Positions 4,074 through 25,246 of a stretch of DNA of 64,000 bases are shown here, in pieces. The notes beneath the pieces were generated by a model. That model was not told where the DNA came from, ran no database searches, and was given only the letters and a program-made list of their open reading frames with translations. Position 1 is the first letter of the stretch, and each line of letters starts with the position of its first letter. The DNA is taken from assembly GCA_005799495.1 (NCBI GenBank), contig SYGP01000012.1:1-64000 (forward strand), written 5' to 3'. The position numbers were made by a program, and so were the translations under genes. This stretch comes from Planctomycetia bacterium (GTDB taxonomy: Bacteria > Planctomycetota > Phycisphaerae > Phycisphaerales > SM1A02).

Positions 4074-4490
4074 ATGGATACGCGGAAATGCCCGCGCTCA
4101 CTCCTTCGCTTCGCGGCGATTGCGCTGACAGCCGCGACCGCCGCGGTGGCGTCGGTTGCGTGCTCAAGCGGGCCCCGCAGGGTGACCGTTCCAGCGCCGC
4201 TTGTCGGGAAGTGGTTCGGGCAGAACTCGGGAGATTCGATCGAGTTCACCGACTCAGGCGTGTTCGTGGTTGAACTCCGAGGGGTTGATCCGCTCATCGG
4301 ACGCTGCGTGTTCAAAGGCACGCGCATCACGCTGCGGTATCAACTTGGGTCCACCATCTGCCCAGAAGAGCCGGGTGAATACACCTTCGAAGTGGACGGA
4401 TCATCGCTGAAGTTCATCGATGCTGCAGACACCTGTCAGACGCGCAGGGATGCATTCGCTCAATCCTGGCGGCGGAGCGAGCAAGGATGA
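4074..4490 (+). CDS. Small lipoprotein, lipocalin-like size
   Basis: This is a 138-residue predicted lipoprotein. MDTRKCPRSLLRFAAIAL starts the signal peptide, which ends in a lipobox-like SVAC, so the acylated Cys would be near residue 30. The mature part (about 105 residues) begins LVGKWFGQNSGDSIEF and alternates strands with turn residues, as in small beta-barrel or lipocalin-like proteins. It contains three further Cys. I chose the ATG at 4074 because it gives a normal signal peptide; the ATG at 4014 would add 20 residues in front and also lacks a ribosome site. It overlaps the next gene by 4 bp, so the two are probably co-translated and may act together in the envelope. Confidence 0.7.
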   Translation: MDTRKCPRSLLRFAAIALTAATAAVASVACSSGPRRVTVPAPLVGKWFGQNSGDSIEFTDSGVFVVELRGVDPLIGRCVFKGTRITLRYQLGSTICPEEPGEYTFEVDGSSLKFIDAADTCQTRRDAFAQSWRRSEQG

Positions 4491-6334
4491 TGCTGGTCGT
4501 TGCCGTGATCCTTTCGGCCGTGTCTGTCTCCGCACTCGGTCCGCCTGTGCGTGGTACGGCGGCGCCCGCAAGCGCACTCGAATGCTTCGGTGAGGCAGGC
4601 GAGCAGCGGATCGTGCTCCTCGCGGGAGGGTCGGGGCAGGCGGATGAAGAACTGAAGAACGCCCGCGAGGAACTCGCCAAGGTCGCGTCGGAGATTCTGG
4701 CGGAAGTCCAGCAGCCGCAGGCCGCGGATGAAGAGCAGCCCGAGACACAGTCGAGGCGCGGCGGTTCATCCAAGCGTGGATCTGCGCTGTCCTCGCTCCG
4801 ACCGAAGTTGGAAGCGCTCACGCAGTCCGCCGCCACCGTGCGCCTCCTGCAACTGGTGGGCGCTGCGCCCGACACGGAGCGAATGAGTGTGGCGCAGGAG
4901 TACCTGACGCATGCCGCGTTCGCGCGCGCTCTGGCGCTGATCGTCGATCCGGCCAACGAGGATGCGGGAAAGGTGCAGCGTGTCGCGCGGCTGCTCATGC
5001 AGGAGCGCTCCAAGGCGGTCGATGCCGCGCCCGAACTTGCGGCGGCCATTTCGGTGGTGTGTGATGCGCCCGTCGTCGCCCAAGTGAACGAGAATCTGGC
5101 GAGCGGAAGTGGAGCGCTGCCGGTGTTCGATCACCTCTGCCGAAACGAACGCAGTTTGGTCTTCGGGATCAAGGATGTGCCGAGCGAGGCATGGGTCTTC
5201 GTGGTGGATGTCGCCGCGCCTGAGGCGGAGATGCAGTGGGCTGTGCAGCAGTTCGCGAAGCAGCAGGACATCGGCGCGTTGTACGACCGAGTCGAGTACG
5301 ACATCGACCATCTGGAGAGGGGTACGCCCAAGAAGGTGACGCAGGCGGGCTGGAACCTGCCGAACATTCTGAAGCATGGCGGAGTCTGCGCCGATCAGGC
5401 GTATTTCTGTGCGACAATCAGCAAGTCCCTCGGCGCGCCTGCCGCGGTGACGGTCGGACGCGATGGCAGTTTGAGCCACGCCTGGATCGGCTACGCGATG
5501 CGTGGTCGCGGTGGTCCGAGCTGGTTGGAGTGGGGGCGTTTCGGCGGATACATGGGAGTCGAGGGGATGATCCTGCATCCGCAGACGGGGAAGTCCGTGT
5601 CGAGCACGCTGATGCCGATGCTGACCCAATATGGGCGAACGCCCGCTGCCGATCGACGGCTGGTGGCGGGGCTTCGCATCGCGGCTGCCGAGGCGAAGCC
5701 CGTCGATGCTGCGCTTGAACTGGCGCGTCTGGGGCTGCAGATCGGCGTCACGGATTCGCGAACATGGGATGTGGTGGCGCGAGCGGCCGCGAGCGGCAAG
5801 ATGAGTGATGAGCAGAAGACGCAGTGGTCGGAGGATGTCATCACCTTGTGCCTCGACTCGTATCCCGAGTTCTCGTGGCGCATGATTGAGCCGATGATCA
5901 CATCGATTCCAGATGCGCAGGAGCGCGTTCGCATGCTGGATCGGTTTGCGGGCGTCTTCGCAGCCCGCGGGGACATCGTGGGACAGATCCTCATGCAGCA
6001 GGCTCGACTGCTCGAAGCCGCGGGCGACTTCACCGCGGCGGGACGCTGCTACGACAGCATCATCTCGAACTACGCGAACGAAGGACCCTTCGCGTTCGAT
6101 GCGGCAATCGCCGGCGCCAAGATCCTCCGCAATCAGGGCAACATGATGGGTCTCATTCAGTTCATGCAGCGCGCGTTCCGCAACATGGATCCGCCGAAAA
6201 ACATCAGCCCGAACTTTGCTCGTCAGACGAATTGGTATCGCTGCGGATCGATGCTGATCGACGCTCTCCGCGCCGCAGGCCAAGGCCAGCAGGCGGATCT
6301 CATCCGAGCCCAGATGGATTCGGTGATGAACTGA
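4487..6334 (+). CDS. Secreted transglutaminase-like protein
   Basis: This is a 615-residue exported protein with an N-terminal signal sequence (MMLVVAVILSAVSVSALG). A helical Glu/Gln-rich stretch with an acidic low-complexity patch follows to about residue 110. A transglutaminase-like papain-fold core then carries GGVCADQA (Cys301) and SHAWIGY (His331); I could not fix the third, acidic residue. The C-terminal 250 residues are helical and TPR-like (ARLLEAAGDFTAAGRCYDSI). Such proteins act as peptidases or protein-modifying enzymes, and the substrate here is unknown. Translation is coupled to the small lipoprotein upstream (ATGA overlap). Its 3' end runs 112 bp into the oppositely oriented SprT-like gene. 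Confidence 0.8.
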   Translation: MMLVVAVILSAVSVSALGPPVRGTAAPASALECFGEAGEQRIVLLAGGSGQADEELKNAREELAKVASEILAEVQQPQAADEEQPETQSRRGGSSKRGSALSSLRPKLEALTQSAATVRLLQLVGAAPDTERMSVAQEYLTHAAFARALALIVDPANEDAGKVQRVARLLMQERSKAVDAAPELAAAISVVCDAPVVAQVNENLASGSGALPVFDHLCRNERSLVFGIKDVPSEAWVFVVDVAAPEAEMQWAVQQFAKQQDIGALYDRVEYDIDHLERGTPKKVTQAGWNLPNILKHGGVCADQAYFCATISKSLGAPAAVTVGRDGSLSHAWIGYAMRGRGGPSWLEWGRFGGYMGVEGMILHPQTGKSVSSTLMPMLTQYGRTPAADRRLVAGLRIAAAEAKPVDAALELARLGLQIGVTDSRTWDVVARAAASGKMSDEQKTQWSEDVITLCLDSYPEFSWRMIEPMITSIPDAQERVRMLDRFAGVFAARGDIVGQILMQQARLLEAAGDFTAAGRCYDSIISNYANEGPFAFDAAIAGAKILRNQGNMMGLIQFMQRAFRNMDPPKNISPNFARQTNWYRCGSMLIDALRAAGQGQQADLIRAQMDSVMN

Positions 6335-23369: not shown

Positions 23370-24035
23370 TCAGGCGCGTGGCGTCGCCGCGCGAATGGAG
23401 GCGAGCACCGTGACGCCGCCAACGACACGCGCACCCTTCCGGACTTGGACCGTGGACGCGTGCGCTGCAGGGATGATGAGCTCGGTCGTCGAACCGAACT
23501 TGATCATGCCAAAGCGCGCGGCGCGTTCAAAGCGTTGACCGGGGACCACGGGGCACACGATGCGCCGTGCGATGGCTCCTGACACTTGACGCACACCCAG
23601 CCGCGTTCCATCCGAGGCTTCGATCACGATCAGATTTGATTCGTTGACCTTCGCGCTCTCCTCCGAGCGCGCATCGAGATACTGCCCAGGCGTGTGCAGG
23701 ATCGACACGATGCTGCACGCGCAGGGCATGCGGTTGATGTGCACATCGAGCACACTGAGGAAGATGCGGATGATTACGGCTGGTCCATGCACGGCGGGAT
23801 GGTGATCGACCGCTTCGACAGCGGAGATCACGCCGTCGGCAGGGCTGACGAGATCGCTCGGGTTGTCGGTGGCTGGTCGTCGAAAGAGCGGATCGCGGAA
23901 GAACGCTGCAACGGCGAACCAGAGGATGCCAACGATGGTGATGAGCCACCAAGATGGCCCAAGGAGAAGAAGCGCGGCAATGGCAGCGAGCGTGGCGAGC
24001 CCCCATTCGCGCATCCCGAATCCGCTGAGGATCAT
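23370..24035 (-). CDS. psd: Phosphatidylserine decarboxylase, short (archaeal-type) form
   Basis: This enzyme makes phosphatidylethanolamine from phosphatidylserine; it is a pyruvoyl enzyme made by self-cleavage. The 221-residue length and motifs fit the compact PSD-A type: FFRDPLFRR, LVSPADGVIS, VLDVHINRMP (catalytic Asp/His region), and MIKFGSTTEL, where cleavage at Gly-Ser would form the pyruvoyl group. Two hydrophobic segments at residues 12-50 anchor it in the inner membrane. The ATG overlaps the stop of the HTH-membrane gene by 4 bp, so the pair is translationally coupled. The usual partner pssA is not in the window. It could instead act on archaetidylserine-like substrates, but phosphatidylserine is most likely. 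Confidence 0.9.
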   Translation of the reverse strand: MILSGFGMREWGLATLAAIAALLLLGPSWWLITIVGILWFAVAAFFRDPLFRRPATDNPSDLVSPADGVISAVEAVDHHPAVHGPAVIIRIFLSVLDVHINRMPCACSIVSILHTPGQYLDARSEESAKVNESNLIVIEASDGTRLGVRQVSGAIARRIVCPVVPGQRFERAARFGMIKFGSTTELIIPAAHASTVQVRKGARVVGGVTVLASIRAATPRA

Positions 24036-25246
24036 CCGTCGATGGACTTTCCGACGAAGAAGCCGATGCCGCCGAAGAGCAGCGTGCCGCCGGCGAGTCC
24101 CCCGAGCCAGAGCATCATGTTGTCCCCCGTGATCTCGCCAGCAAGCGCCGATCCACCTGAGGAACGCGTTCCAACCACGATGAGTGCGGCAACAACGATG
24201 GCAGCAAGCGCTCCCACCATCAGTCCGATGCCCAGCCCACTCGACGCACCATCGACGGTCTCCGCAGCAACAAGAACGGGTGTCGCGCCGCGTGCCGCCG
24301 ATGTTGTCGCCATCGCAGGCGCTGCCGCATCGGCATCCACGAACGCCTCGCCACCCACCTCGTCGGTCGGTGCGAACAGGTCAGTGTCCGCAGAGAGCGA
24401 TCCGCCGCCACCGTCGAAGGAGTCTGCGCCATCATCGAGAAGCGCAGCGCTGATGCTGGACGCATCGGCATCGGCAGAGTCATCCAAGCCGCGACCAACC
24501 GGCTCGAGCGAGAGGTCGTCGCCAGCCATCGAACTACCGTCCGCTGCAGGAGTGGGGCGCTTTGGCTGCGGGCGGGTGGGCATGGCCATCGACCCACTCA
24601 TTTCATTGAGAGCCATCCCCGACCCAGAGTCGCTTGGCGGGGCAGCCTGAGCGGGTGATGCCGGCTTCGTCGTGGAGTCTTCGAGCCCAAGGTCCAGATC
24701 CAATCCGAGATCGAGACCGCTGCCGGATCCCATCGATGCGGGGTTGTTCGGGAGTGCATGTGGACTGGATGCGCTTGGAACTGCACCAAGACCGGAGTCA
24801 TCGAGATCGAGCGCGATGCCACTGCCCGACTCGGCAGCCCTTGCAACCGGCGGAGGAGGTGCCTGCGCTGGCGCGATGCCTGAGTCAGCGAGGTCGAGGT
24901 CGAGCAAGTCGAGTTCTGCTCCGCTGCCACCACCTGCGGCGGGTGGTGCGGGCTGTGGTTCATCATCGAACTTGAGTTCATCGAGCACCGCGCTGCCGGA
25001 GTTCTCGCTGAGGTCAATGTCCAGCTGAAGAGGCTGAGGTGAAGCTGGAGCTTCGTCCTCGAGCGCAAGTTCGATGTTGCCAAGGTCGTCCACGACAAGC
25101 TGGTCGATGACCGCCTTCTTGAAGTGGGTCACATCGTGCATCTTGAACTCTTCCAATTGCCCCGAATCGACCATGGCGCGCAGCTCGGACTCCGACTTCT
25201 GGAGTTTCGCTGCAGCCTCGTCGATGGTGTAGAAGAGCTTGGCCAT
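24032..25246 (-). CDS. HTH protein with acidic repeats and two C-terminal membrane segments
   Basis: This is a 404-residue protein. Residues 1-50 form an excisionase/MerR-type winged HTH (FYTIDEAAAKLQKSESELRA, FKMHDVTHFKKAVIDQLVVD). A long low-complexity region, about residues 55-325, is rich in Asp, Leu, Ser, Gly and Pro, with repeated units such as SGSGIALDLDDSGLG and SGSGLDLGLDLDLGLEDS. Two hydrophobic segments end the protein (GLGIGLMVGALAAIVVAALI and MMLWLGGLAGGTLLFGGIGF). The HTH would sit in the cytoplasm, tethered by a flexible acidic linker. It is translationally coupled to psd. I do not recognise a characterised homologue. The HTH may bind DNA or may bind a protein. Confidence 0.75.
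   Translation of the reverse strand: MAKLFYTIDEAAAKLQKSESELRAMVDSGQLEEFKMHDVTHFKKAVIDQLVVDDLGNIELALEDEAPASPQPLQLDIDLSENSGSAVLDELKFDDEPQPAPPAAGGGSGAELDLLDLDLADSGIAPAQAPPPPVARAAESGSGIALDLDDSGLGAVPSASSPHALPNNPASMGSGSGLDLGLDLDLGLEDSTTKPASPAQAAPPSDSGSGMALNEMSGSMAMPTRPQPKRPTPAADGSSMAGDDLSLEPVGRGLDDSADADASSISAALLDDGADSFDGGGGSLSADTDLFAPTDEVGGEAFVDADAAAPAMATTSAARGATPVLVAAETVDGASSGLGIGLMVGALAAIVVAALIVVGTRSSGGSALAGEITGDNMMLWLGGLAGGTLLFGGIGFFVGKSIDG

Follow-up and report, generated by a model that had tools for sequence, protein, structure and literature searches.

The window, the whole 64,000-nt stretch of planctomycete DNA analysed here, carries on its reverse strand a gene for a protein in which an N-terminal winged helix-turn-helix (HTH) domain is joined through a long acidic linker to C-terminal membrane helices. 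This gene overlaps psd. The features of the locus are:

24032–25246 (−): gene for a membrane-tethered winged-HTH protein (ORF of 404 aa; orthologues in the order and class)
25076–25246 (−): winged HTH domain, residues 1–57, net acidic (PF12728, AlphaFold2, Foldseek, charge analysis)
24257–25069 (−): acidic Ser/Gly/Ala-rich disordered linker, residues ~60–330 (pLDDT mostly < 50; composition; LDL/GSG enrichment)
24428–24514 (−): degenerate copy, LSLEPVGRGLDDSADADASSISAALLDDG, of a linear motif with the family consensus LSLETVGSGSGLLDLTRESDDTSLGAELLEE (alignment A1)
24161–24250 (−): C-terminal membrane helix 1, residues 333–362 (hydropathy 2.95; AlphaFold2 helix)
24038–24118 (−): C-terminal membrane helix 2, residues 377–403 (AlphaFold2 helix; two membrane segments in most orthologues)
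24032–24035 (−): 4-nt ATGA overlap between the HTH-gene stop codon and the psd start codon (read from the sequence)
23370–24035 (−): psd, phosphatidylserine decarboxylase, 221 aa (PF02666, E 6e-37)

The coordinates and the 4-nt overlap reported in the first-pass annotation are right, and the HTH–tether–membrane layout that it described is real and conserved by Pfam, AlphaFold2, hydropathy and orthologue comparison. Judged by its sequence, in which the FGST self-cleavage site is seen, the window psd product is a genuine phosphatidylserine decarboxylase. The sole domain recognised by Pfam in the 404-aa HTH-tether protein is HTH_17 (PF12728; residues 5–47, E 5e-4), where the window copy scores 20.6, below the Pfam cut-off of 27 bits, and orthologues (L093) score above it. 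An AlphaFold2 model based on 41 orthologues has a winged HTH over residues ~1–56 (block pLDDT 87–94), disorder over ~60–330 and helices at 333–362 and 377–403. No signal peptide is evident. The second helix is weak in the window copy, which has only one segment above a hydropathy of 1.6; the two membrane segments originally proposed agree with the AlphaFold2 helices and are found in 52 of 58 orthologues at a hydropathy threshold of 1.55. The loop between the helices is ∼17 residues long, and the C-terminal tails of class members are rich in Lys and Arg (mean 7.7 K/R, versus 0.9 in the loop). By the positive-inside rule, such tails combined with two helices and a short loop would place both the N- and the C-terminus in the cytoplasm.

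The window linker (residues 61–338) is 17% D/E, 3% K/R and 24% S/G, with Ala as the most frequent residue. The stretch had been described as acidic Ser/Gly-rich repeats. At the protein level this term is fair, since LDL occurs 7 times against 0.4 expected and GSG 5 times against 0.5 (composition shuffles, p ∼2e-4); at the DNA level no relevant tandem repeats were found in the linker-coding sequence and there is no tandem array. When the whole alignment for the order is scored in windows of 20 columns, conservation peaks in a linker motif, VGSGSGLLDLTRESDDTSLGAELL (mean 0.82–0.83), and all HTH windows of the same size lie below this (0.61–0.76). A DDTSLGA-like core of the motif is present in 51/58 order proteins and 20/20 class proteins, compared with 7% of shuffled linkers; in the phylum set, where two class members are included, just 3 of 18 proteins have it. 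On these alignments the linker is more than a mere tether, as it carries the best-conserved stretch of the family. The motif is degenerate in the window protein and its two closest relatives, which makes the window protein a somewhat atypical family member to study, and the function of this copy may have shifted.

The gene is present as one copy in its own genome and is widespread. Its N-terminal 65 residues were found in 57 of 61 order genomes; of the four genomes without a match, three (G006, G010 and G016) have psd close to the end of a contig, at the place expected for the HTH gene. A profile built from 41 orthologues (A1) detected the family as a single-copy gene, mostly at full length, in all 120 sampled class genomes and gave matches in 170 of 244 genomes of a phylum sample that includes class members, although these counts are not independent trials since the relatives are phylogenetically correlated. 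Outside the class the A1 match is limited to the HTH region. The outer members read directly follow the same plan, in which a related HTH precedes an acidic, Ser-rich linker (with SDSDVKLV-type repeats in L175, L176, L179 and L184) and a single C-terminal membrane helix, and a scan of named contigs with one peptide pattern, suited to close relatives, returned records that were almost exclusively planctomycete. As far as sequences tell, one-helix versions are spread across the phylum Planctomycetota. Linker length in the family ranges from 130 to 320 residues. In five proteins from outside the class (L177, L178, L181, L183 and L188) the linker bears another signature, DxGMSTEP(I/L)D or LQTEP(L/V)D, and the differing signatures suggest lineage-specific docking motifs. 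One phylum member (L191, genome G070, 4165–5091) has a tandem pair of HTH domains ahead of the linker.

Foldseek searches with the HTH domain matched BldC, SoxR, RacA, NmlR, CbpM and Xis. The matches are weak (best E 7.5e-3), which is to be expected of a domain of 59 residues. CbpM (3ucs) was the lowest-E match of the full model and was also matched by the domain model, but the DNA binders BldC, SoxR, RacA and Xis match the fold as well as CbpM does. Two other matches were rejected: the defence protein MADS1 (E 0.064) reflects general HTH resemblance, and PDB 8vd6 (E 2.8e-15) is a repeat protein of which one helix-turn-helix stretch is matched five times at ∼12 bits each.

The domain thus has the winged HTH fold of HTH_17/excisionase/MerR-like proteins, but the DNA-contact surface expected with it is largely lacking in silico. 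Net charge, a crude proxy for such a surface, ranged from −7 to −1 (mean −4.0) in 56 distinct order orthologues and from +1 to +7 (mean +4.2) in 19 other HTH_17 domains from genomes of the same order; the ranges do not overlap, though related sequences are not independent. Mean charge was −1.8 for class members and −1.3 for other planctomycete members. The position before the wing aromatic is Arg in 18 of the 19 control domains and in none of 41 orthologues (Met in 27, His in 6, Lys in 2, others in the remainder), so that both the basic surface and the wing arginine are absent. The recognition helix contains acidic residues; at positions 35 and 43 of the family HTH a basic residue is conserved. 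Several members outside the class retain a basic wing residue (KFR/WKF), so DNA binding by an ancestral form is possible. Given the acidic surface and the lost contact residues, a protein is the most likely binding partner of the HTH domain, and a role as a classical transcription factor is less likely.

Gene neighbourhoods differ sharply between the window's order and the rest of the class. Of the order genomes in which both genes were detected (48 of 61), 46 have psd as the next gene downstream, in the same orientation, a count drawn, like the other neighbourhoods, largely from metagenome-assembled genomes with contig ends; the exceptions are an insertion in G045, which moves psd ∼2 kb away, and G027, in which the genes are far apart. 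The median gap is 21 nt; of 90 order loci, some of them redundant, 22 overlap by exactly 4 nt. The HTH gene and psd probably form an operon within the order. Outside it, among 101 class genomes, psd adjoins the HTH gene in none of the 93 genomes that bear it, so psd is a conserved neighbour within the order but not across Phycisphaerae. Fifteen of the 120 class genomes keep the HTH gene with psd missing, seven of them in the window's order. In order family f2, the nearly complete genomes G037, G042, G046, G050, G054, G058 and G380 have no detectable psd, so phosphatidylethanolamine synthesis there may be lost or different.

Outside the order, the HTH gene is instead followed directly by a gene for an OmpA-domain lipoprotein (PF00691) in 77 of 95 class genomes. 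The orthologous lipoprotein is present in 61/61 order genomes (in the window's own genome at G000:C26:19513-20241), and in 0 of 19 order genomes compared does its gene lie beside the HTH gene. Among 17 loci inspected outside the class, 5 also have the lipoprotein gene close to the HTH gene, which suggests that the pairing with the OmpA lipoprotein is the older arrangement. As psd is never adjacent in class genomes outside the order and the lipoprotein pairing appears older, the psd neighbourhood is real but derived; on this evidence of gene presence and gene order the HTH gene is not a psd accessory. Adjacency by itself is in any case no proof of common function. In 13 of 20 class loci (L155–L174) the gene immediately upstream of the HTH gene encodes a ∼150-aa protein that matches nothing in Pfam and has a single membrane segment, and this small membrane protein, the HTH protein and the OmpA lipoprotein make up a recurring three-gene cluster in the class.

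No described family was found to fit all features of the protein, and several known systems share some of them. The closest precedent for the HTH domain is CbpM, which in Escherichia coli regulates the co-chaperone CbpA. CbpM has a MerR fold that lacks the residues with which MerR proteins contact DNA, and acidic residues form its interface with a basic J-domain (PMC4063869). The family HTH resembles it in combining a MerR-like fold with missing DNA-binding residues, and CbpM is among its top Foldseek matches. CbpM, however, is a soluble, coiled-coil dimer with neither disordered linker nor membrane helix, identity in the structural alignment is ∼22–25%, and the CbpM gene adjoins cbpA, while no J-domain gene was seen beside the HTH gene among annotated neighbours. 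The N-terminal domain of SpmX is lysozyme-like, whereas here it is a winged helix, and Pfam gave only the HTH and no lysozyme-like domain. SpmX, a polar scaffold of Caulobacter, continues from its folded N-terminal domain into a disordered region and two C-terminal membrane helices (PMC8849385), an order of parts also given by hydropathy and AlphaFold2 for the HTH-tether protein, the likeness being one of layout. RacA, BldC and Xis share the winged-helix fold but are DNA-binding proteins that lack a membrane anchor, and they possess the basic contact surface that the family HTH is missing. The outer planctomycete proteins with SDSDV repeats share the related HTH (profile A1), the acidic Ser-rich linker and a C-terminal membrane helix; they differ in having a single helix and other linker repeats and motifs, with the OmpA-lipoprotein neighbour in a minority only. 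In RodZ, a cytoplasmic HTH binds MreB. RodZ sits in the membrane and belongs, with MreB, to the Rod complex (PMC6946637). It likewise places an HTH on a membrane protein, but its HTH is of the HTH_25 type and it has a single membrane helix and a periplasmic domain, where the present protein has only an HTH_17 match and two membrane helices.

We tentatively favour, though with less than even confidence, a scaffold that is anchored in the membrane and binds other proteins through its acidic winged helix and its linker motif. The gene would represent, for Phycisphaerae, one branch of a family of membrane-anchored scaffold or adaptor proteins in planctomycetes. The C-terminal helices would anchor the protein in the cytoplasmic membrane with both ends cytoplasmic, and the disordered acidic linker of 130–320 residues would carry a short docking motif and keep the winged helix off the membrane. 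The winged helix itself, a MerR/BldC/Xis fold with an acidic surface, would dock a protein partner, as CbpM does. A role in envelope or membrane organisation is envisaged, the OmpA-domain lipoprotein gene being the putative ancestral neighbour and psd having probably become the downstream gene later and in one order only. For this reading we count the universal single-copy presence, the conserved linker motif, the charge, the CbpM match, the OmpA pairing and the basic C-tails; against it count the weak Foldseek values, the matches to DNA binders, the conserved basic positions 35 and 43, the basic wing of outer members and the degenerate motif of the window copy.

A rival is a membrane tether for the chromosome, in which the winged helix would hold DNA, either weakly or as a dimer or oligomer, and linker and helices would keep the nucleoid near the membrane. 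The best fold matches include BldC and RacA, which holds the nucleoid near the membrane indirectly, through DivIVA; a structural role would suit a protein that is anchored in the membrane and present everywhere as a single copy; and members outside the class retain a basic wing residue. We nevertheless find such a tether doubtful, given an acidic domain with acidic recognition-helix residues and, within the class, no wing Arg, and an acidic linker that would compete with DNA. The same poor DNA-contact surface counts against a membrane-held transcription factor, released by intramembrane proteolysis or working at the membrane like CadC or ToxR. A DNA-binding-type fold at the N-terminus and a membrane anchor at the C-terminus fit that design, but to our knowledge known factors of the CadC/ToxR kind carry a conventional DNA-binding domain, and a loop of only ∼17 aa leaves no periplasmic sensor domain; we rate this option as quite improbable.

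The membrane-lipid-linked sensor of the first-pass annotation would tune psd expression or Psd activity by membrane sensing, via translational coupling or contact. It draws on the position of psd in 46/48 order genomes, on the 4-nt overlap, found here and in many relatives, and on Psd being likewise a membrane enzyme. As the core role it is unlikely: the gene is class-universal (120/120), is kept in 15 genomes that have no psd (seven of them in the same order) and shows 0/93 adjacency outside the order, and psd sits downstream in an apparent operon, so that adjacency may be plain co-transcription. A RodZ-like adaptor whose HTH binds MreB has a very slight chance. MreB was found in 61/61 class genomes, and a Pfam HTH_25 search gave no match in the window's own genome; HTH_25 matches in 48 of 61 class genomes, however, mean that many may own a real RodZ, and both the HTH family and the membrane topology differ from those of RodZ.

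The scaffold that we favour would extend, in a broader version to which we assign a rather low probability, to a planctomycete-wide core scaffold that uses a MerR-type winged helix as a protein-docking module, holds it to the membrane by an acidic disordered linker with a short motif conserved better than the folded domain and, with an OmpA-type lipoprotein, organises the envelope or cell division. Planctomycete cell building and division are unusual, and a large share of planctomycete essential genes is reported to be without known function (PMC10632474). A class-universal, single-copy protein of the membrane that combines a repurposed transcription-factor fold with a strongly conserved motif in its disordered linker is a concrete, testable candidate for such a function. 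In line with the initial remark that no described system of this layout was known, our literature searches gave no description of the family: those on planctomycete HTH-membrane or excisionase low-complexity proteins returned nothing relevant, and the word excisionase does not occur in the main text of the P. limnophila essential-gene paper. The locus also cautions against inferring function from one neighbour, with psd in that place in one order and the OmpA-domain lipoprotein in most other class genomes. Where the lipoprotein gene is separate from the HTH gene, a gene named by eye as an MlaE-like permease lies near it in three of seven order loci (L305, L306 and L310).
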